Shown here: piece by piece, positions 7,779-40,031 of the stretch | How positions within the stretch are numbered: position 1 is the first letter of the stretch | How the letters are laid out: each line of letters begins with the position of its first letter | Source of the DNA: Rhodospirillales bacterium | GTDB taxonomy: Bacteria; Pseudomonadota; Alphaproteobacteria; Acetobacterales; Acetobacteraceae | Direction of reading: 5' to 3' | Length of the DNA: 40,043 nucleotides | Assembly: GCA_947447625.1 (NCBI GenBank) | Contig: CANFKS010000028.1 | Location: forward strand, 1 to 40,043 | The notes under the pieces: generated by a model | Databases searched by the model: none | What the model was told of the DNA's origin: nothing | Seen by the model: only the letters and a program-made list of their open reading frames with translations | Translations under genes and position numbers: made by a program

Positions 7779-9100
7779 GCGCCCGCCAGCGTCATCGCAT
7801 CGATCCGCACCGTGGGCGCATCGGTGCCGCGGCGGAACACCAGGTCGTTGGCTGGCGTCATCATGGTAAACATCTCCTGCAACGTCCCCGCGATGGTCAC
7901 TTCCGCCACCGCCTCGGCCAGCTTGCCGTCCCGGATCATGAACCCCGCGGCCCCCCGGCTATAGTCCCCGGTCAGCCCGTTGATGCCCATGCCGATCAAC
8001 TCGGTGACATACAGCCCCTCCTTGATGTCGGCCATCAGTTCGGCCGGGCTCACGCTGCCAGCGGCGAGAAAGAGGTTCGTCGTGCCCGGCGAAGGCGGCC
8101 CGCCAGTGCCGCGTGAGGCATGGCCGGTGGTCCTGAGATCGAGTTGCCGCGCCGAGCGGCTGTCCAGCACCCAGGATCGCAGCACGCCATCCTCGACCAG
8201 CACCAGCGGCGCGGTCGGCACGCCCTCGGCGTCGAACGGGCGCGAGCGCGCCCCGCGCAGACGGCGCGGATCGTCGGTGATGGTGATGCCGGGGCGAAAA
8301 ATCTGCTGGCCCATTTTCTCGCGCAGAAAACTCGTACCCCGCGCCACCGATGCGCCGTTGATGGCGCTGGCGAGATGCCCGATCAGCCCGGCCGAAACCC
8401 GCGGGTCATAGATCACAGGCACTGTGCCTGTCTTGGCCCGGATCGGGTCGAGCCGCGCAATCGCCCGGTTGCCGGCCGAGCGGCCGATCGCCTCGGGGTC
8501 CTCCAGGTCGGCCAGATGGACGGCGGAGGTATAATCATAGTCGCGCTGCATCCCGGTGCCGGACCCGGCGAGCGCCACGGCGGACAGGGAGTGGCTGGTG
8601 CGCGCATAGCGCCCGGCAAACCCGGCCGACGTGACGAGGGTGATCTCGGTGCGGCCATAGCCCGCCTCCGCGCCCTCGGAGTTGGTGATGCCGCGCACCG
8701 CCAGGGCGGCCTCCTCGGCAATCGCGGCCCGCGCGATCAGCGCTGCCGCATCGGGCTCGGCGGGGTCATCGAGATCAAGTTCGACCGCCTCCAGCCGCGC
8801 CTCGTCGGCCAGCGCCGCATAAGGGTCCTCCGGCACGACGCGGGCCATATCCACCGCACGCTCCGCCAGCGTGGCAAACCCCGCCGGATCAACCGATGAG
8901 GACGCCACAATCGCCGCCCGCCGGCCGACGAACACGCGCAGCCCGAGATCGCGCCCCTCGGCCCGCTCCAGATGCTCGATTTTGCCCAGCCGCCGCGCCA
9001 CGCTGAGCGATGTGCCGGAAATCAGCACCGCATCCGCCGCATCGGCGCCCGCCGCCTTGGCGCGTTGGATCAACGTCTGGAGAAGGTCGATCGAGGTCAT
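7775..9100 (-). CDS. pmbA: PmbA/TldE metalloprotease-complex subunit
   Basis: The 441-residue protein is of the TldD/PmbA family. It lacks the HExxxH zinc site that defines TldD, so it is the TldE (PmbA) subunit, which pairs with TldD to degrade unfolded peptides and process modified peptides such as microcins. Family marks are AEGRDLGLRVFVGRRAA near 46-63, a central GTSFLREKMG segment and the C-terminal TGDYSRGAAGFMIRDGKL stretch. No tldD is in the window. It is followed directly by sufE (ATGA overlap). A palindromic repeat lies between its start and the upstream M16 peptidase. Confidence 0.93.
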   Translation of the reverse strand: MTSIDLLQTLIQRAKAAGADAADAVLISGTSLSVARRLGKIEHLERAEGRDLGLRVFVGRRAAIVASSSVDPAGFATLAERAVDMARVVPEDPYAALADEARLEAVELDLDDPAEPDAAALIARAAIAEEAALAVRGITNSEGAEAGYGRTEITLVTSAGFAGRYARTSHSLSAVALAGSGTGMQRDYDYTSAVHLADLEDPEAIGRSAGNRAIARLDPIRAKTGTVPVIYDPRVSAGLIGHLASAINGASVARGTSFLREKMGQQIFRPGITITDDPRRLRGARSRPFDAEGVPTAPLVLVEDGVLRSWVLDSRSARQLDLRTTGHASRGTGGPPSPGTTNLFLAAGSVSPAELMADIKEGLYVTELIGMGINGLTGDYSRGAAGFMIRDGKLAEAVAEVTIAGTLQEMFTMMTPANDLVFRRGTDAPTVRIDAMTLAGA

Positions 9101-32075: not shown

Positions 32076-32167
32076 CTCAACCACACCCGCCTCGGCACGA
32101 GGCGCCGCGCGGCACTTTTTGCCGACCCAAAATGGATGTCGAATGGCGGAAATCAGCCAGGCTCAAG

Positions 32168-32182
32168 TGGCACATCGCTTGC
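32168..32182 (+). promoter_or_regulatory. Sigma-54 (RpoN) promoter for flgI
   Basis: TGGCACATCGCTTGC matches the -24/-12 consensus TGGCAC-N5-TTGC exactly. It points at flgI, and the expected start of transcription near 32194 leaves a short leader to the ATG at 32219. Confidence 0.8.
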
Positions 32183-32218
32183 GTCTTCCACATCGTGATG
32201 AAGCGAATGTGGCAGGCA

Positions 32219-33340
32219 ATGGTTTATACTTGGCTACGATGCGGCGGTTTTTTGGCCTTGACCGTGATTTTTCTGAACCTCCTCGGCGGGGCGGCGGCGG
32301 CCCAAGTGCGCATCAAGGATATCGCCGATGTCGAGGGTGTCCGCGACAATCAACTGGTTGGCTATGGGCTGGTCGTCGGCCTCAATGGCACTGGCGACAA
32401 GCTCGATTCGGCCGTTTTCACCCGCCAATCCCTGATCGGCATGCTGGAGCGTCTCGGCGTTAACACCCGGGACCAGGAAAGCAAGCTCCAGACCAAGAAC
32501 GTCGCCGCCGTGATGGTGACGGCCAATCTCCCCGCCTTCGTGCGCAGCGGCAGCCGGATCGATATCGCGGTCTCCGCCCTTGGTGACGCCAAGGACCTGA
32601 CCGGCGGCACTTTGCTCGTCACGCCCCTGCTGGCCGCCGATGGCGAGGTCTACGCAGTGGCACAAGGTGCGATCGCCACGGCCGCCATCGCAGTGCGCGG
32701 GGCCAATGCCTCCGTTACCCGTGGTGTGCCAACCGCCGGGCGCATCGCCAATGGCGCCACGGTCGAAAAGGAAGTCGGCTACCAGATCGCCACCAAAACT
32801 GCGCTGCGCCTGGGCCTGCGCAACCCCGACCTCACCACCGCAAGGCGTATCGCCGCTGCCATCAACACCGCCCTCGGGTCCAGCGCGGCCAAGGCGACCG
32901 ACCCACGCAGCGTGCTCATCGATCTTGCCGGGCGCGATGTGATCGAGGCTCTGGCGCGGATCAGCGAGTTGCGGGTGCAGCCCGACAGCGCCGCCATCGT
33001 CGTGATCGACGAAGCGAGCGGCACCATCGTGATGGGCAGCAACGTCCGTGTCAGCACCGTCGCCATCGCCCAAGGCAACCTGACCATCCGCATCACCGAA
33101 ACCCCCGAGGTCAGCCAGCCCGGTCCCTTTTCAAACGGCACGACCACGACAGTCGGGCGCACCAACGTCCAGATCGATGATTCGTCAGACAGGAAGCTCG
33201 GCATCCTCAACGCCAACGTCACATTGCGCGACCTCGTCGCCAGCCTGAATTCGCTCGGCGTCGGTCCGCGCGACATGATCACCATTCTCCAATCGATCAA
33301 GGCGGCAGGTGCCTTGCAGGCGGAATTGCAGGTCCGATGA
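32219..33340 (+). CDS. flgI: Flagellar P-ring protein FlgI
   Basis: The 373-residue FlgI has a signal peptide (MVYTWLRCGGFLALTVIFLNLLGGAAAA) and the family opening VRIKDIADVEGVRDNQLVGYGLVVGLNGTGDKLD. SKNVAAVMVTANLP-type sequence and the C-terminal LNSLGVGPRDMITILQSIKAAGALQAEL are also typical. It builds the periplasmic P-ring around the flagellar rod. ATGs at 32198 and 32207 are in frame, but the sigma-54 promoter puts transcription start near 32194, so 32219 is favoured. Overlaps flgJ by four bases (ATGA). Confidence 0.96.
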   Translation: MVYTWLRCGGFLALTVIFLNLLGGAAAAQVRIKDIADVEGVRDNQLVGYGLVVGLNGTGDKLDSAVFTRQSLIGMLERLGVNTRDQESKLQTKNVAAVMVTANLPAFVRSGSRIDIAVSALGDAKDLTGGTLLVTPLLAADGEVYAVAQGAIATAAIAVRGANASVTRGVPTAGRIANGATVEKEVGYQIATKTALRLGLRNPDLTTARRIAAAINTALGSSAAKATDPRSVLIDLAGRDVIEALARISELRVQPDSAAIVVIDEASGTIVMGSNVRVSTVAIAQGNLTIRITETPEVSQPGPFSNGTTTTVGRTNVQIDDSSDRKLGILNANVTLRDLVASLNSLGVGPRDMITILQSIKAAGALQAELQVR

Positions 33341-33660
33341 ACATCACCCCATCCTCCCCCCCCGACACACCGCAACGCGCCACAGCAGAGGGCCAGAAAG
33401 CCTGGAAAGCAGCACAGGAATTCGAGTCGATGGCGCTTGGCGCCCTGCTGCAGCCGATGTTCGAAACCGTCCAAACCAATGGCGGCAACAAGCCCGGCGG
33501 CGGCATGTTCGGCGGCGGTGCCGGCGAGGAGATGTGGCGGCCGATGTTTGTGCAGGCCATCGCCAAGCAGATGGCTGGCCATGGCGGGATCGGCCTGGCC
33601 GTTCCGGTCTTCAACCGCATGCTGCAAATGCAGGAAGCACAGCGAGGGACATCGACATGA
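33337..33660 (+). CDS. flgJ: Rod-binding protein FlgJ (N-terminal domain type)
   Basis: The 107-residue protein has only the rod-binding domain: AAQEFESMALGALLQPMFETV, a glycine-rich loop, EEMWRPMFVQAIAKQMAGHGGIGLA and VFNRML. The muramidase domain of gammaproteobacterial FlgJ is absent, as in other alphaproteobacteria (CheL-type). It probably scaffolds rod assembly in the periplasm. ATGA overlaps on both sides place it between flgI and the flgN-like gene in one transcript. Confidence 0.9.
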   Translation: MNITPSSPPDTPQRATAEGQKAWKAAQEFESMALGALLQPMFETVQTNGGNKPGGGMFGGGAGEEMWRPMFVQAIAKQMAGHGGIGLAVPVFNRMLQMQEAQRGTST

Positions 33661-34043
33661 CACCGGGCCTGATTGACGCAATCGAAACCGTGATACGGAT
33701 CATGGAGCATGAAAACACCGCCCTTCTGGCGATGGACCTGCGGGCAGCCGCCGCGCTGACGAACGAAAAACGCGAAGCGGTCGCCCGCCTTGCCGCCCTG
33801 CGACCCACTGCCTTGCGGGACCCTCGCCTGCGCCCGGCATTTGAACGGATGGAGCAGCTGTCGCGGATAAACCAATCCCTCCTCAGCCGCGGCCTCGCCG
33901 CCCAGGGCCGCGTGATCAACCTGCTCGCTGCCGCCGCCCAAACCGCCCGCGCCACCCGCCCCGGCCAGGCGGCCCGCTACACTGGACTTGGCCGCCACGC
34001 CCAGACTGCCGCGCCGGCGATCGCAATTTCGACCCGGGTTTGA
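33657..34043 (+). CDS. FlgN/FlbY-like flagellar protein
   Basis: This 128-residue mostly helical protein starts MTPGLIDAIETVIRIMEHENTALLAMDLRAAAALTNEK, the pattern of FlgN/FlbY-type small flagellar proteins, which in other bacteria chaperone hook-filament proteins. The C-terminal third is alanine-rich with little conservation. The ATG overlaps the flgJ stop by four bases. Position in the flgI-flgJ operon supports the call; sequence similarity alone is modest. Confidence 0.75.
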   Translation: MTPGLIDAIETVIRIMEHENTALLAMDLRAAAALTNEKREAVARLAALRPTALRDPRLRPAFERMEQLSRINQSLLSRGLAAQGRVINLLAAAAQTARATRPGQAARYTGLGRHAQTAAPAIAISTRV

Positions 34044-34102
34044 ACGGAAATCCGCCACCGTGCCCCTGGCCTTCCCGCTGCCGCAGTGCTACGGCCCCGG
34101 AC

Positions 34103-34834
34103 ATGCAATCCGACAACGATGATGCGATCTGGCCGGATGTTCTGGCGCGTGCGCCCCATGCGGCGTCCGCCTTGCCGCTCTACGCCCCGCTGCTCGACGG
34201 GCCCGTTGTGCTCGGTCGCATCGCCCAGACGCTGGACAGCAAAATCGCCACCACGAACGGCGCCTCTTTTTGGATAAGCGGGCCCGCCGATATCCGCCAC
34301 ACCCATCGCCTGCGCGCCTTGTTTGATGCCGTTGTGGTCGGCGCCGGCACCATCCGTGCCGATGACCCTCTGCTTACCACCCGGCTTTGCGCCGGCCCCT
34401 CCCCGGTGCGCGTCGTGCTCGACACCGAACGCAGCCTCGGCACCGCCTATCGCGTTTTCACCGATGGGCCCCCGACCTTGTTGGCCTGCGCGGCCGACCG
34501 TGCGAGCGAAACACACGGCAGCGCTCAGGTCATCAGCCTCCCGCGCGCCGGACGCGGCCTCGATCTCACAGCCCTGCTCGCCGCCCTGCGCGCGCGCGGA
34601 CTGGCCCGTGTCTTCATCGAAGGCGGCGGCGTGACGGTATCGCGCTTTCTCGCTGCCGGCGTGCTCGATCGCCTGCACGTCACGATCGCCCCGCTTCTGC
34701 TCGGCGATGGCGTGCCGGCCTTCACCTTGCCCGGCGTGGCCCGCCCGCAGGATGGGCTGCGCCTCGACTGGACCCTCCATCGTCTTGGCGCCGATATTCT
34801 GCTCGACATCCCCTTGACCCCGGCCCGCGCATGA
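34103..34834 (+). CDS. RibD C-terminal (reductase) domain protein
   Basis: The 243-residue protein is a stand-alone RibD_C/dihydrofolate-reductase-like domain. VLGRIAQTLDSKIATTNGASFWISG, the DAVVVGAGTIRADDPLLTTR motif for NADPH and substrate, the IEGGGVTVSRFLAAG stretch and LLLGDGVPAF are typical. The zinc deaminase half of RibD is missing. In riboflavin synthesis this domain reduces the ribosylaminopyrimidine; free-standing forms reduce related pyrimidines or pteridines. First gene of a tight five-gene run with a pterin-synthase homologue, so a pteridine-like substrate is inferred. ATG 34103 avoids overlap with the flagellar gene. Confidence 0.85.
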   Translation: MQSDNDDAIWPDVLARAPHAASALPLYAPLLDGPVVLGRIAQTLDSKIATTNGASFWISGPADIRHTHRLRALFDAVVVGAGTIRADDPLLTTRLCAGPSPVRVVLDTERSLGTAYRVFTDGPPTLLACAADRASETHGSAQVISLPRAGRGLDLTALLAALRARGLARVFIEGGGVTVSRFLAAGVLDRLHVTIAPLLLGDGVPAFTLPGVARPQDGLRLDWTLHRLGADILLDIPLTPARA

Positions 34835-35775
34835 AAACCCGCGCCTTCTGGACCATCGCCCCCGGTGTCGGCGAACTGCGGGACGAAGCCCTGCCGGCGC
34901 CGTTGCCTGATGAAACCCGGATCCACGCCCTGGCCAGCGGCATCTCGCGGGGTACCGAAGCCACGATCTTCGCCGGCCATGTTCCTTCGAGCCAGTTCGA
35001 CACCATGCGTGCGCCCCTCATGGCCGGAGATTTCCCCTTCCCCGTCAAATACGGCTACGCCCTGGTCGGGCGCACCGACGTTGGCACGCGCGTGTTCGTG
35101 CTTCACCCGCACCAAGCCGTCTGCAACGCTCCGGCCGCGATGTGCATTCCCCTCCCCGCAGCCCTGCCCACACACCGCGCCGTGCTGGCGGCCAACATGG
35201 AAACCGCGCTCAACATCGCGTGGGACGCAGCACCCCTGGCCGGCGAACGCATGATGGTGGTCGGCGCCGGTGTCGTCGGTCTGCTCACCGCCTGGCTCCT
35301 AGCCCGCACCCCGGGCGCCGATGTGGCCGTGATCGACATCGATCCCGCGCGGCGAAGCCTGGCCGAAGCCTTTGGCTGTCGCTTCGCCCCCCCCGACGCC
35401 GCCCCCGCGGATCGCGAACTCGTGGTCCACACTTCCAGCACCGAAGCCGGCCTGCGCACCGCCCTTGCCGCCGCTGCCTTCGAGGCCCGCATCATCGAGG
35501 CCAGCTGGTTTGGCGACCGCGCCCCCGCTTTGCCCCTTGGCGAAGCGTTCCATGCCCGCCGCCTGCGCCTCATCGCCTCCCAGGTCGGCGCCGTCTCGCC
35601 CGCCATGCGGGGCCGGCGCAGCCACGGCGAACGCCTCGCCATGGCGCTTGACCTGCTGGCTGACCCGGTGTTCGACAGGCTGCTCGATACCGTCGTCCCC
35701 TTCGCCGATCTCCCGCGCCGCATGCCCGGCCTGCTCGCCGGCGGCCTGTGCCATATCGTCACCTATGAGGAATAA
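34831..35775 (+). CDS. BchC-like MDR-superfamily dehydrogenase
   Basis: The 314-residue medium-chain dehydrogenase has ASGISRGTEATIFAGHVPSSQFDTMRAPLMAGDFPFPVKYGYALVG, the pattern of BchC-type enzymes, and a Rossmann motif VVGAGVVGLLTAWLLA near 148-163. The catalytic zinc ligands of true alcohol dehydrogenases (CGTD, GHE) are replaced (SRGTE, YGYAL), so zinc catalysis is unlikely. It probably oxidises or reduces a hydroxyl on the pathway intermediate. ATGA overlap with the RibD-like gene and three bases before the next gene. No bacteriochlorophyll genes are nearby. Confidence 0.85.
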   Translation: MKTRAFWTIAPGVGELRDEALPAPLPDETRIHALASGISRGTEATIFAGHVPSSQFDTMRAPLMAGDFPFPVKYGYALVGRTDVGTRVFVLHPHQAVCNAPAAMCIPLPAALPTHRAVLAANMETALNIAWDAAPLAGERMMVVGAGVVGLLTAWLLARTPGADVAVIDIDPARRSLAEAFGCRFAPPDAAPADRELVVHTSSTEAGLRTALAAAAFEARIIEASWFGDRAPALPLGEAFHARRLRLIASQVGAVSPAMRGRRSHGERLAMALDLLADPVFDRLLDTVVPFADLPRRMPGLLAGGLCHIVTYEE

Positions 35776-35778
35776 CCC

Positions 35779-36180
35779 ATGTTCAGCCTGACGGTTTGCG
35801 ACCACATCATGATCGCCCACAGCTTCTCCGGCGCCGAATTCGGCCCCGCGCAGAAACTCCACGGCGCCACCTTCGCCGTGGAGGCCGAATTCCGCGCCCC
35901 CCGGCTCGATCACCTCAACCTGCTGATCGACATCGGCCTCGCCAAGGTCGAACTGCGCAAAGTGCTCGACACGGTCGATTACAGCAATCTTGACGAAAAG
36001 CCCCAGTTTGCAGGCCAAAACACCACCACCGAATTCATGGCCCACCACATCCATACCCTGCTCAGCGCCGCTCTGCGCGACGGCCGGATGGGCGATGGCG
36101 GCAAGGCCGTCACCGGGCTCAAGGTGCTGCTGCGCGAAAGCCCGGTCGCCTGGGCGGCCTATGAAGGGGCGGTGGCGTGA
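35779..36180 (+). CDS. 6-pyruvoyl-tetrahydropterin synthase/QueD-family protein with degenerate active site
   Basis: The 133-residue T-fold protein aligns with PTPS/QueD: IAHSFSGAEFGPAQKLHGATF at the N-terminus, LLIDIGLAKVELRKVLDTVDYSNLDE in the middle, NTTTEFMAHHIHTLL, and RESPVAWAAYEG at the end. Zinc histidines H14 and H28 and the glutamate of RESP remain. The third zinc histidine is A30 (HGA for HGH), the catalytic cysteine position before LHG is not Cys, and the Asp-His pair reads D67-Y68. It is therefore unlikely to make standard 6-pyruvoyl- or 6-carboxy-tetrahydropterin. AGGA precedes ATG 35779, and the next gene overlaps (GTGA). Confidence 0.85.
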   Translation: MFSLTVCDHIMIAHSFSGAEFGPAQKLHGATFAVEAEFRAPRLDHLNLLIDIGLAKVELRKVLDTVDYSNLDEKPQFAGQNTTTEFMAHHIHTLLSAALRDGRMGDGGKAVTGLKVLLRESPVAWAAYEGAVA

Positions 36181-37211
36181 GCCGGATCGCCTTCCTCGTC
36201 CCCGGCCGGCTCGATACCATCTCCGGTGGCTATGGCTATGACCGTGCGATCATCGCCGCGCTGCGCAGCCTTGGTCATACCATCGACACCGCCGAACTCC
36301 CCGGCACGCATCCGCTGCCTGACGCCGCTGCGATCGCCGCTGCCCGCGCCGCCTGGGACAGTCTCGCGCCCGATGCCATCCCCGTGATCGACGGCCTAGG
36401 CCTGCCCGCCTTCGCCGACTGCGCCCCCGCGTTCGCCGCCCGCCACACCGTTGGCCTGATCCATCACCCGACCGCGCTCGAAGCCGGCCGCACCGATGCC
36501 GCGCGAGACCAGCTGCGTGCCAGCGAACTGCGCCTCTTCCCCGCCCTGCCTCGCATCATCGTCACCTCTGACGCCACGGCGATCCGTCTGGCGCAGGATT
36601 TCGGCGTCGATTCGGAGCGCATCCGCGTCGTCGTCCCCGGCACCGCCCCGGCCCCGCGCTGCGCCGGATCGGGTGGCCCGGGCTGCACCATCCTCTCTCT
36701 GGGCGCCTTCATTCCGCGCAAGGGGCATGACCTGCTGATCCGCGCCCTCGCCCGCCTGTTCGACCTGGATTGGACTCTGCTCATCGCAGGGCCGGGTATC
36801 GACTCCCCCCATGCCCAGTCCTTGCGCGCTGTGGCGGAGGAACTCGGAGTCACCCACCGCGTCACCTTCCTTGGCGCAGTCCTCGAGGCTGAGCTCGACG
36901 CCTTGTGGGCCCGCGCCGACATCTTCGCCCTCGCCACCCAGTTCGAGGGCTACGGCATGGCCATCGCCGAGGCCCTGCGCCGCGGCTTGCCCGTCGCCGT
37001 CACCAACGGCGGGGCTGCGGGCGCGCTGGTGACGCCAGAAGCCGGGATCGTCTGCGAAGTTGGTGACCTCGTGACGTTCTCAAAAGCGATCCGTCGCCTG
37101 ATCTTTGACCGACCCCTGCGCGCTGCCGCCGCGGATGCCGCCTGGGCCATCGGCCAGGTCCTGCCGGATTGGCCGCAACAGGGCGCTGCCTTCGCCGCCG
37201 CCCTGCGCTGA
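36177..37211 (+). CDS. GT4-family glycosyltransferase
   Basis: The 344-residue GT-B enzyme begins with FLVPGRLDTISGGYGYDRAIIAALRSLGH, the acceptor-domain glycine loop. The C-terminal half has SLGAFIPRKGHDLLIRAL and the GT4 EX7E region EGYGMAIAEAL. It transfers a sugar from a nucleotide donor with retention. The start is GTG 36177, overlapping the stop of the pterin-synthase homologue. No other glycan genes are nearby, so a small-molecule acceptor made by the neighbouring genes is more likely than lipopolysaccharide. Confidence 0.9.
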   Translation: MSRIAFLVPGRLDTISGGYGYDRAIIAALRSLGHTIDTAELPGTHPLPDAAAIAAARAAWDSLAPDAIPVIDGLGLPAFADCAPAFAARHTVGLIHHPTALEAGRTDAARDQLRASELRLFPALPRIIVTSDATAIRLAQDFGVDSERIRVVVPGTAPAPRCAGSGGPGCTILSLGAFIPRKGHDLLIRALARLFDLDWTLLIAGPGIDSPHAQSLRAVAEELGVTHRVTFLGAVLEAELDALWARADIFALATQFEGYGMAIAEALRRGLPVAVTNGGAAGALVTPEAGIVCEVGDLVTFSKAIRRLIFDRPLRAAAADAAWAIGQVLPDWPQQGAAFAAALR

Positions 37212-37224
37212 GAAGGATCATGGC

Positions 37225-38088
37225 ATGACCGAGACCTTCGACGCCGGCTGGCTTGACCTGCGCGAACCGTTCGACGCGGCCGCCCGCCACCCTGGACTGG
37301 CCGAACGCTTCATCGCCGCCCTGCCGCCGCAGCCCGTCATCATGGATCTCGGTGCCGGTGGTGGCAGCCTGTTCCGCTGGCTCGCACCGCGCATCGGCGG
37401 CGACCAAGCCTGGCTGCTGGTTGATGCCGATGCTGGCCTGCTCGAACATGCCCTCAACGTCACCGCTGCCTGGGGCGCCGCCCAAGGCTTCGCCGTCCGG
37501 GCCACCAGCGGCCTGATGCTGCGCACGCCGGGCGGGATCTGGCGGATCGGCGCCAAGGTGGCCGACCTTGCGGACGTCGCACCGCTCGACATCGGTGCAG
37601 CCGACGGTGTGGTGTGCAGCGCCTTGCTCGATCTGGTTTCACCGAACTGGATCACCGCGCTGGCAGGCGAAGTCACCGGCCCCGTCCTCGCCTGCCTCAA
37701 TGTCGATGGCCACGACATGATGCTGCCCCGCCACGCCGCCGATCGCACCATCACCACAGGCTTCCGACGCGACCAGTCCCGCAACAAGGGGTTCGGCCCC
37801 TCCGTCGGCCGTCATGCCGAGGGCTTCTTCCAGGCCGCTTTCGCCGACGAGGGTTTCGCCGTCAGCACTGCCGCCTCGCCTTGGCACATCCCGGCTGGCG
37901 CCGCACAGATGCTCTCTGCCTTGGTTGACGGCCATGCCACCGCCGCCGCGCGCTGGATGCCCTCATCGCGCGGCACGATCACGGCCTGGCGAAAATCACG
38001 CCTGCGCCAGATCGCAATCGGACGGCTTGCCATGCGGATCGGCCACCGCGATCTTCTCGCCGTGCCGCTTGATGCGCACGGCGGCTGA
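37225..38088 (+). CDS. Class I SAM-dependent methyltransferase-like protein
   Basis: This 287-residue protein has motif I VIMDLGAGGGSLFRWL near residue 46 and an acidic end of strand 2 (LLVDADAGLLEHAL), the SAM-binding pattern of class I methyltransferases. The post-I region contains DGVVCSALLDLVSPNW. The C-terminal third (ITAWRKSRLRQIAIGRLAMRIGHRDLLAVPL) is basic. Methylation target unknown. AAGGA precedes ATG 37225, 13 bases after the glycosyltransferase, closing the five-gene run. Confidence 0.78.
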   Translation: MTETFDAGWLDLREPFDAAARHPGLAERFIAALPPQPVIMDLGAGGGSLFRWLAPRIGGDQAWLLVDADAGLLEHALNVTAAWGAAQGFAVRATSGLMLRTPGGIWRIGAKVADLADVAPLDIGAADGVVCSALLDLVSPNWITALAGEVTGPVLACLNVDGHDMMLPRHAADRTITTGFRRDQSRNKGFGPSVGRHAEGFFQAAFADEGFAVSTAASPWHIPAGAAQMLSALVDGHATAAARWMPSSRGTITAWRKSRLRQIAIGRLAMRIGHRDLLAVPLDAHGG

Positions 38089-38121
38089 TCGACTCGCTTT
38101 TATTGTTTGGGAGACCCTGCC

Positions 38122-39387
38122 ATGGCGCTGCTCGGATGCATCGCGGATGATTTCACCGGCGCGACCGACCTCGCCGCCATGCTCGTCAAAGGCGGCATGC
38201 GCGCCGTCCAACTCATCGGCGTCCCCGGCCATGACGACCCGGTACCCGCTGCCGATGCCATCATCGTCGCCCTCAAATCCCGCACCGCAGCGCCGGGCGA
38301 CGCCGTTGCCGAAAGCCTCGCCGCGCTGGCCTGGCTCAAGCGCGCGGGTTGCCGTCAATTCTTCTTCAAATATTGCTCAACCTTCGATTCCACCGAACAC
38401 GGCAATATCGGCCCCGTCGCCGAAGCTTTGTCCGACGCGCTCGGAACCGGCTTCGCGCTGGCCTGCCCCGCATTCCCTACCAATGGGCGCACCGTCTATC
38501 AGGGCCATCTGTTCGTCGGCGGCGCCCTGCTCAACGAAAGCGGCATGGAGAAGCATCCGCTCACGCCGATGACCGACGCCAACCTGGTGCGCGTCCTCTC
38601 CCGCCAATGCCAAGGCACTGTCGGCCTGGTGCCTTTCGCGACGGTGAACAACGGCCCCGCTGCCATCCGCGGCGCGATGACCGCCCTCAAGGAACAGGGA
38701 CGCCGCTTCGCCATCGTCGACGCCGTCACCGATGCGCATCTGCGCGCGATCGGCGAGGCCGCCGAGAACCATGCCCTCATCACCGGCGGCTCCGGCGTCG
38801 CCCTTGGTCTGCCCGAAAATTTCCGCCGCGCCGGCCTGCTCGTCGCCAGCGATGCCGCCGCCCTGCCCAGCCTCGATGGCCATGCCGCCGTCCTCGCCGG
38901 CTCCTGCTCGCGCGCCACCCTGTTCCAGATCGGCAACGCCCGCAGCCAGGTGCCGACCCTGGAACTCGACGCCCTCGCCACGCCCGACGCCGCAGCCCTC
39001 GCCGCGGAGGCGATCGCGTGGGTGAAGGGCCGTCTCGGCGCCATTCCTGTGGTGATCGCCGCCAGCGCCCCGCCCGAAAAAGTCGCCGCCCTGCAGGCCC
39101 GGCTCGGCCGCGAGGCCGCGGGCGCACTGATCGAAGAGACCCTCGCCACCATCGCCGCCGCCCTGGTCGAACAAGGCGTCCGCCGCCTCGTCGTGGCCGG
39201 TGGCGAGACCTCGGGCGCCGTCGTCACCCGGCTTGGCGTCCGCTCGCTGCGGATCGGCCGCGAAATCGACCCCGGCGTGCCCTGGACCTATGCCGAGGGC
39301 AACGGCGTGCCGCTGATGCTGGCGCTGAAATCCGGCAATTTCGGCGCGCCCGACTTCTTCACCAAAGCCTTCGCGGCCCTGGCGTGA
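38122..39387 (+). CDS. otnK: 3-oxo-tetronate kinase OtnK (DUF1537 family)
   Basis: The 421-residue kinase of the four-carbon acid sugar kinase family starts LLGCIADDFTGATDLAAMLVKGG, the family signature. FFFKYCSTFDSTEHGNIGPVAEAL and the C-terminal nucleotide segment VAGGETSGAVVTRLGV with PGVPWTYAEG follow. It phosphorylates 3-oxo-tetronate to the 4-phosphate. ATG 38122 has GGGAG upstream. It shares one base with the next gene (TGATG), which is the matching decarboxylase, so the substrate assignment is well supported. Confidence 0.92.
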   Translation: MALLGCIADDFTGATDLAAMLVKGGMRAVQLIGVPGHDDPVPAADAIIVALKSRTAAPGDAVAESLAALAWLKRAGCRQFFFKYCSTFDSTEHGNIGPVAEALSDALGTGFALACPAFPTNGRTVYQGHLFVGGALLNESGMEKHPLTPMTDANLVRVLSRQCQGTVGLVPFATVNNGPAAIRGAMTALKEQGRRFAIVDAVTDAHLRAIGEAAENHALITGGSGVALGLPENFRRAGLLVASDAAALPSLDGHAAVLAGSCSRATLFQIGNARSQVPTLELDALATPDAAALAAEAIAWVKGRLGAIPVVIAASAPPEKVAALQARLGREAAGALIEETLATIAAALVEQGVRRLVVAGGETSGAVVTRLGVRSLRIGREIDPGVPWTYAEGNGVPLMLALKSGNFGAPDFFTKAFAALA

Positions 39388-40031
39388 TGGACGAACCGGC
39401 AACGCGCGCCCTTCTTGCCGAACTCGGTCGCAGCCTGTTCGCGCGCGGCTTCTCGGTCGGCAGCGCCGGCAATATCTCGGTGCGGTTGCCCGATGGCTAC
39501 CTGATGACGCCGACCAACTCCTCCCTCGGCCGCCTCGACCCCGCGCGGATTGCCAAGCTTGATGACGACTTCCGCCATATCGACGGCGATCCGCCATCCA
39601 AGGAAGTGTTCATGCACCGCGCGATGTATCGCGGCCGCGCGGCAGCGGGCGCGCCGGTCGGTGCGGTGGTGCATTTGCATTCCACCATGGCCACCGCCGT
39701 CGCCTGCCTTCCTGACATCGACCCCACCAACCCGATCCCCCCGTTGACGCCCTATTTCGTCATGCGCGTCGGCCGTGCCATGCCGGTAATTCCGTATTAC
39801 CGGCCTGGCGATGCCGCCATGGAACCGGCAATTGCAGCGGCAGCCGAAGGCGCGCGGGCGATGCTGCTCGCCAATCACGGCCCTGTGGTGAGCGGCAAAA
39901 CCCTCACCGACGCCGTCTATGCCGCAGAGGAGCTTGAGGAAGCGGCAAAGCTTTTCCTGCTGCTGCGCACCAGCGCACCCCGCCTGCTGACGCCGTCGCA
40001 GGTCGATGATCTGTTGACAACCTTCCAGTAG
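39387..40031 (+). CDS. otnC: 3-oxo-tetronate 4-phosphate decarboxylase OtnC (class II aldolase family)
   Basis: The 214-residue class II aldolase/adducin protein has SAGNISVRLPDGYLMTPTNSSLG, the zinc motif VVHLHSTMATA near 94-104 and LLANHGPVVSG near 158. It decarboxylates and isomerises 3-oxo-tetronate 4-phosphate to dihydroxyacetone phosphate. Together with OtnK it completes the last two steps of L-threonate, D-threonate or D-erythronate use; the dehydrogenase (LtnD/DtnD-type) and isomerase genes are not visible. Complete; only 12 bases remain in the window after its stop. Confidence 0.92.
   Translation: MDEPATRALLAELGRSLFARGFSVGSAGNISVRLPDGYLMTPTNSSLGRLDPARIAKLDDDFRHIDGDPPSKEVFMHRAMYRGRAAAGAPVGAVVHLHSTMATAVACLPDIDPTNPIPPLTPYFVMRVGRAMPVIPYYRPGDAAMEPAIAAAAEGARAMLLANHGPVVSGKTLTDAVYAAEELEEAAKLFLLLRTSAPRLLTPSQVDDLLTTFQ

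Follow-up and report, generated by a model that had tools for sequence, protein, structure and literature searches.

The PTPS-family protein SCO6650 (3d7j) has been described alone; it reportedly lacks the zinc, the catalytic triad and PTPS activity, and is not known to have an assigned function or product. Other members of the family are distinguished by the motifs CxxxHGH (PTPS-I, QueD), CxxxxxHGH (PTPS-II) and ExxHGH (PTPS-III), and the function of a further type, PTPS-V, is called 'still unclear' in the same source (PMC5041015). Cyanobacteria make pterin glycosides (PMC13259868), the Chlorobium pteridine glycosyltransferase CtPGT glycosylates tetrahydrobiopterin (PMC5683033), and BrbF, a creatininase-family formamidase, serves riboflavin synthesis in Sinorhizobium (PMC9478397). 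Here we analysed a run of five genes, one of which encodes an SCO6650-like PTPS homologue, in a stretch of 40,043 nucleotides (hereafter, the window) from contig G000:C28 of a 4.28 Mb Rhodospirillales draft genome. The co-occurrence test and gene-order counts reveal that the five genes form a real set, beyond chance. From a ring derived from GTP, the set probably makes a compound that carries a sugar and a methyl group and that would be fixed to a membrane lipid in many relatives. We see about even chances that the five genes form the centre of a dedicated pathway starting from the product of GTP cyclohydrolase II.

The five genes are arranged as follows.
34103–34834, plus strand: RibD_C-type reductase without a deaminase domain (Pfam RibD_C, E 3e-40, the sole family match)
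34831–35775, plus strand: BchC-like medium-chain dehydrogenase/reductase (MDR) (NCBIfam bchC, E 7e-8, far under the cut-off)
35779–36180, plus strand: PTPS/QueD-family protein with GPAQxxHGAT at the position of the zinc/catalytic motif (Pfam PTPS, E 3e-21)
36177–37211, plus strand: GT4 glycosyltransferase with a GTG start (Pfam Glycos_transf_1, E 5e-27)
37225–38088, plus strand: class I S-adenosylmethionine (SAM)-dependent methyltransferase (Methyltransf_25, E 1.5e-4, under the cut-off; AlphaFold/Foldseek)

All five frames are open on the plus strand with a single stop each. They are joined, in order, by an ATGA overlap at 34831, 3 bases before 35779, a GTGA overlap at 36177 and 13 bases before 37225; an in-frame TTG at 34040 is an alternative start for the RibD_C gene. 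The original prediction had placed the genes and the four junctions in the same way, as the open frames confirm, and its family calls were borne out by profiles for RibD_C, the BchC-like MDR, PTPS and GT4, and by the AlphaFold model for the SAM methyltransferase.

To count co-occurrence we used three samples, with E thresholds of 1e-5 for PTPS, 1e-40 for MDR and 1e-60 for RibA. The first was an even draw of 120 genomes from the window's family, its own genome included. The second came from a scan of species genomes, in which the best 80 of at least 591 relatives comprised 57 near and 23 far loci; among these 80, the closest relatives of the window by PTPS were Acetobacteraceae (Roseomonas and its relatives) and bins of Rhodospirillales. 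The third was an even draw of 398 Pseudomonadota genomes, 27 of which, including the window's, contained the PTPS clade; 23 of the 26 others were fetched, and the three skipped belong to the same genus as fetched ones. Since two genomes are duplicated (L152 and L155 repeat the genomes of L095 and L105, so that the far and phylum-draw counts overlap by two), the 103 PTPS loci represent 101 distinct ones; the duplicates were left out only in the gene-to-gene distance correlations.

PTPS of this type was found in 55 of the 120 family genomes. MDR was present in 54 of these 55, as compared to none of the 65 PTPS-negative genomes (Fisher P 1e-33), and in 54/54 cases the two genes shared a contig, at a median gap of 17 nucleotides and less than 500 nucleotides apart in 52. 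The wider neighbourhood was assessed in loci with at least 4.5 kb on either side of PTPS (full flanks; 41 near, 19 far and 22 phylum-draw loci). All five genes occurred in the window's order in 33 of the 41 near loci, while five others lacked only the methyltransferase, the least constant core member in the window's group, and three had fewer genes. All five families were likewise found in 16/19 far loci, 13 of these 16 complete sets having the order MDR-PTPS-GT4-methyltransferase with RibD_C reversed, and in 16/22 phylum-draw loci. Over all 23 fetched phylum-draw loci, MDR was detected in 23, GT4 in 22, the methyltransferase in 21 and RibD_C in 19. In one genome, RibD_C and the CDP-alcohol transferase lie about 62 kb away from the remaining cluster genes. 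The pairwise distances of the five proteins correlated at 0.83–0.94 (67 loci), and at 0.64–0.90 in the 29 loci outside the window's group; shared species history can be a partial cause of these correlations.

The five families also occur together, mostly reordered, in gammaproteobacteria, betaproteobacteria, an Acidobacteria bin and actinobacteria. Among 7 of 21 plasmid records, whose gene tables are incomplete, all five are listed or recognisable on Microbacterium, Methylosinus and Peteryoungia plasmids; the plasmid of Streptomyces fungicidicus lists the set without RibD and that of a Rhodobacteraceae member the set without GT4. Haloarcula pHsi388 carries a diverged set consisting of MDR, PTPS, GT4, a methyltransferase-like protein, a creatininase and a CDP-alcohol transferase. 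The co-occurrence that the original prediction expected from a gene-neighbourhood search is thus present, but its frame, the Alphaproteobacteria, was too narrow, as the set extends to other classes and phyla and, in part, to Haloarcula. Likewise, the five-gene run stands as a genuine core, but it is incomplete in comparison with the larger cluster of relatives.

The RibD_C protein is best matched in the PDB by 6p8c, a 2,5-diamino-6-ribosylamino-4(3H)-pyrimidinone 5'-phosphate reductase (E 1.5e-28), followed by the archaeal-type 2azn (E 1.5e-21); bacterial RibD is matched more weakly (best E 4e-18), and the NCBIfam cut-off of rib_reduct_arch (TIGR01508) was missed (108.4 vs 186.45 bits). Arg71 and Arg94 are kept in 86/86 covered loci, and from the alignment with the PDB match we take them to correspond to the substrate arginines Arg183 and Arg206 of E. 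coli RibD. The domain and these arginines predict that the cluster protein is a diaminopyrimidine-type reductase. All 14 of the cluster genomes examined have a further RibD_C match away from the cluster (exactly two matches in 12), and deaminase motifs precede the outside copy in 14/14 (both motifs in 13, one in 1), as compared to 0/14 for the cluster copy. In the tree, the cluster and other RibD_C proteins are split by one change, which appears in 94% of bootstrap trees.

GTP cyclohydrolase II is matched twice in the window's genome. The cysteine triad is present only in the standalone RibA on contig C3; the RibBA protein (L124, G000:C95 2841–3968) contains a GTP cyclohydrolase II domain without it, and riboflavin synthesis therefore probably depends on the standalone RibA. 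The cysteine motif is shared by this RibA and 7/7 of the cluster RibAs examined. Standalone RibA was found in 50/55 PTPS-positive and 30/65 PTPS-negative family genomes.

Of the five proteins, the PTPS homologue shows the highest conservation (mean identity 0.61, 67 loci), and its nearest solved relative is SCO6650 (E 8e-42). Its membership in the COG0720/PTPS family is supported by the Pfam profile together with Glu120. Where solved relatives have HGH and Asp-His, the window protein has HGA and Asp-Tyr. Across the 103 loci, the place of the QueD cysteine (position 24) is occupied by Ala in 102 and Ser in one, that of the zinc histidine (position 30) by Ala in all, and residue 68, which from the alignment with solved relatives we regard as the place of the catalytic histidine, by Tyr in 85, Leu in 8, Phe in 5 and Met in 5, and never by His. 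His14, His28 and Glu120 are invariant (103/103); we take the positions named here as those of the zinc ligands, the triad and the anchor (Glu120). The motif CxxxHGH is found in 0/103 loci; CxxxxxHGH and ExxHGH are likewise absent, with Gly22 and Gln25, respectively, in 103/103 and no HGH. As replacements affect a zinc histidine as well as the catalytic cysteine and histidine, the 'pterin-synthase homologue' of the original prediction cannot be an ordinary pterin synthase, and the residues also contradict the label '6-carboxytetrahydropterin synthase' given to its relatives on plasmids. Elsewhere in the window's genome, a second, strongly diverged PTPS-family stretch lies inside a 248-residue frame (L002, G000:C48:21353-21754).

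The MDR protein missed the NCBIfam bchC equivalog cut-off by a wide range (31.9 vs 291.25 bits). Its AlphaFold model has a predicted local distance difference test score (pLDDT) of 92.9, and the closest PDB folds are polyol and alcohol dehydrogenases; the PDB matches include butanediol, sorbitol, idonate and galactitol-1-phosphate dehydrogenases and TarJ. At the place of the zinc-ligand motif GHE of 4a2c the protein has GYA, and it is apparently without zinc. Tyr76 is conserved in 98/98 covered loci, as are the stretches SRGTE and YGY and, in 99/99 covered loci, Asp169 of the cofactor site. An Asp at this site favours NAD, and the enzyme is probably NAD-dependent. The best PDB match of GT4 is PimB' (3oka); it also matches the 'predicted glycosyltransferases' 3c4q/3c48, structures of MshA, and MshA is second among its NCBIfam matches, both PimB' and MshA being far from equivalence. 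The methyltransferase model has a mean pLDDT of 95.8, and its Foldseek matches in the PDB are class I SAM methyltransferases, 3mgg and RebM among them.

Relatives add further genes to this core. The far loci contain GTP cyclohydrolase II, a creatininase-family protein, a CDP-alcohol phosphatidyltransferase and an LPG_synthase_TM (MprF-like) protein, in 12, 9, 17 and 17 of the 19 loci with full flanks, respectively; the corresponding numbers in the phylum draw are 10, 5, 8 and 7 of 22. The catalytic motif of CDP-alcohol transferases, DGxxARx8Gx3Dx3D, is present in 16/16 of the phosphatidyltransferases of relatives. Together with the five core genes, these four suggest a diaminopyrimidine or pterin ring made from GTP, which would be reduced, oxidised in its side chain, glycosylated, methylated and, in many lineages, anchored to a lipid. 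In the window's family, the CDP-alcohol transferase was found in 0/120 genomes, with up to 22 candidates scored per genome, suggesting that the product there is probably not lipid-linked. The MprF-like protein was found in 2/120, on contigs other than that of PTPS (up to 18 candidates scored), and in a control with all candidates scored, the lipid module was detected in 5/9 genomes and in none of Neoroseomonas, Belnapia, Elioraea and Lamprocystis. Creatininase queries from the cluster matched nothing in the window. In alphaproteobacterial loci (e.g. L170 and L173), RibD_C and the methyltransferase are separated by a cytochrome b561 gene, and on the Peteryoungia plasmid a 'cytochrome b' adjoins RibD. 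On the same plasmid (L179, 1472–5672), genes for a sulfatase-annotated protein, an MprF-like protein, an FkbM methyltransferase and a CDP-alcohol transferase stand beside the set, which suggests further lipid modification in Rhizobiaceae.

On these grounds the following pathway can be proposed. GTP cyclohydrolase II, whose gene is within the cluster in many relatives, would form 2,5-diamino-6-ribosylamino-4(3H)-pyrimidinone 5'-phosphate, and the creatininase-family protein may act as a formamidase. By homology, RibD_C would then reduce the ribosyl to the ribityl chain without deamination of the ring; as no deaminase is attached to RibD_C, the 2-amino-4-oxo (pterin-type) pattern would be kept. 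The next step is speculative: MDR might oxidise a hydroxyl group of the side chain, and if C2' is the oxidised position, the 5-amino group could close on the ketone to yield a 7,8-dihydropterin. The PTPS homologue, which lacks the zinc, might bind the ring by its conserved glutamate and guide closure or tautomerisation. Of all the steps proposed, the formation of the pterin ring is the boldest. Glycosylation would be the task of GT4 and methylation that of the methyltransferase. In relatives only, the CDP-alcohol phosphatidyltransferase would place the product on a phospholipid and the MprF-like protein would move it across the membrane, and the cytochrome b561 of some alphaproteobacteria suggests a redox use. 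The glycosylated pteridine-like product originally predicted is plausible from the protein families; their evidence upholds the GTP-derived pyrimidine or pteridine core, but not the preference for a bicyclic pteridine over a monocyclic aminopyrimidine.

The main rival to closure to a pterin is a monocyclic product, a diaminopyrimidine ribitol or its keto form, without closure of a pteridine ring at any stage. RibD_C and MDR would then act on the side chain, the role of the PTPS homologue would be limited to binding or presenting the pyrimidine, and the ribityl chain would be decorated by GT4 and the methyltransferase. The loss of the zinc and catalytic residues in the PTPS homologue of all 103 loci fits this explanation, as do the polyol-dehydrogenase fold of MDR and the inositol lipid that is the substrate of PimB', the best PDB match of GT4. 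On the other hand, the glutamate that anchors pterins is kept throughout and PTPS is the best conserved of the five proteins, and free 5-amino-6-alkylaminopyrimidines are chemically unstable, which would disfavour such an end product. We regard the monocyclic product as possible, at a modest level of probability.

Tetrahydrobiopterin is derived from GTP cyclohydrolase I, and the cluster might analogously start from an ordinary pterin made by the host's GTP cyclohydrolase I, with RibD_C as a dihydropterin reductase, MDR acting on the side chain and GT4 glycosylating the result. The structures of Rv2671, reportedly a RibD_C protein with dihydrofolate reductase activity, are indeed among the PDB matches of RibD_C (4xrb, E 9e-11), and a PTPS-family gene adjoins a glycosyltransferase gene. 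Bacterial pterin glycosides also exist (PMC13259868, PMC5683033), and the cluster would under this explanation be a functional analogue of the cyanobacterial and Chlorobium systems. However, the Rv2671 match is much weaker than that to 6p8c, GTP cyclohydrolase II is encoded within the cluster in the 12 far loci counted above, and the PTPS motifs are absent, which together make this origin unlikely.

If the PTPS gene acted as QueD, the set could serve a 7-deazapurine (queuosine-like) nucleoside pathway. The PTPS/QueD family and the plasmid annotations suggest this, but it is very improbable given the missing CxxxHGH motif, a QueD model score of 39.8 bits against a cut-off of 89.25, and no QueE- or QueC-like genes among the annotated neighbours; the QueD score and the PTPS residue counts led us to rule it out. 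An association of unrelated neighbours, in which a glycosyltransferase operon for lipopolysaccharide (LPS) or capsule happens to adjoin metabolic genes, is barely credible: many polysaccharide glycosyltransferase models match GT4, all under their cut-offs, but MDR is confined to PTPS-positive family genomes at the P value given above and the same set recurs reordered across phyla, so that an LPS operon was ruled out by the co-occurrence test and gene-order counts. As GT4 travels with the set, an LPS role for it is unlikely; the finding that the original prediction had named as its own refutation, an LPS-type glycosyltransferase, is not supported, with PimB' as the best PDB match. A role in anti-phage defence was also considered and rejected, as the five proteins had no PADLOC match at E 1e-5 and PTPS had none in the phage collection.

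Several observations weigh against the dedicated pathway starting from GTP cyclohydrolase II. RibD_C Asp88, which we take to align with a substrate residue, is Asn in 19/86 covered loci, and the split between cluster and other RibD_C proteins has a support of only 70/83, with one long branch in the tree. GTP cyclohydrolase II lies outside the window's cluster, and standalone RibA is common in genomes without PTPS and was not found in five of the 55 PTPS-positive ones. Within the fetched flanks of the 23 phylum-draw loci, RibD_C was missed in 4, the methyltransferase in 2 and GT4 in 1, and RibD is not among the genes listed in the 16 kb Haloarcula pHsi388 stretch. The haloarchaeal PTPS (L175, pHsi388 8001–8378) retains an HxH motif and may, from its sequence, represent a state before the loss of the metal site. 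One PTPS homologue occurs in another context, on a Streptomyces anthocyanicus plasmid (L181, 9001–9426); it is 47% identical and stands beside MEKHLA- and cupin-domain genes, with other cluster genes unlisted.

Directly upstream of the five genes, at 32132–34043 on the plus strand, lie the flagellar genes FlgI and FlgJ and a gene for a small protein without a Pfam match, which to our eye is FlgN-like. FlgI and FlgJ are present in 32/57 near loci, and the five-gene operon may be co-transcribed with them or merely anchored there; promoter and terminator scans of 33900–38200 gave nothing exceeding shuffles. Downstream, 38125–40028 encodes a 3-oxo-tetronate kinase followed by a 3-oxo-tetronate 4-phosphate decarboxylase, and the kinase is a stable neighbour, with a match in 48/57 near loci. 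Queries with the kinase and FlgI/FlgJ matched 0/23 far and 0/23 phylum-draw loci. Because they matched only in the window's own group, we took these genes as neighbours rather than members.

The families that occur together across several phyla and partly in an archaeon, on chromosomes and plasmids, number five in the core and as many as nine in the extended set. From the latter, a small molecule, often linked to a lipid, can be predicted for genera that include Streptomyces, Methylosinus and Salinicola. Taken to its furthest consequence, the proposal would comprise a GTP cyclohydrolase I-free route to reduced pterins and a flipped pterin glycoside built on a phospholipid as a class of redox lipid, a combination that we consider a doubtful prospect. 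If true, reduced pterins would be made by GTP cyclohydrolase II, a stand-alone reductase that forms the ribityl chain, NAD-dependent C2' oxidation and closure on a zinc-less PTPS scaffold, and many bacteria and a haloarchaeon would contain a membrane-bound pterin lipid, turned outward by flipping and kept reduced in some by cytochrome b561, as a new redox lipid class. In the literature searched, which did not extend to most subscription journals, we found no account of the set of five families, in line with the earlier statement that no described pathway has this exact set; as far as we have seen, the families are all known, and their combination, breadth and lipid branch are undescribed.

Compared with known systems, the cluster is closest to SCO6650 in its PTPS homologue, which is 56% identical over 131 aligned residues and shares the same GPAQRLHGAT and Glu anchor. 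PTPS-I, -II and -III belong to the same COG0720 family, and their motifs are absent from all 103 proteins of the window type; PTPS-V could be this GPAQxxHGAT group. The cluster accordingly offers a pathway context for SCO6650, and perhaps for PTPS-V. The archaeal/fungal-type diaminopyrimidine reductases (6p8c, 2azn) are the closest solved relatives of RibD_C and likewise have no deaminase domain, but the copy here is cluster-bound and accompanied by a deaminase-bearing RibD elsewhere in the genome. BrbF resembles the creatininase-family gene that stands beside GTP cyclohydrolase II in many clusters; it differs in serving the riboflavin pathway of Sinorhizobium, and in the window the creatininase queries found no counterpart. 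Finally, if GT4 acts on a pterin, the outcome would be analogous to the pterin glycosides of cyanobacteria and Chlorobium.

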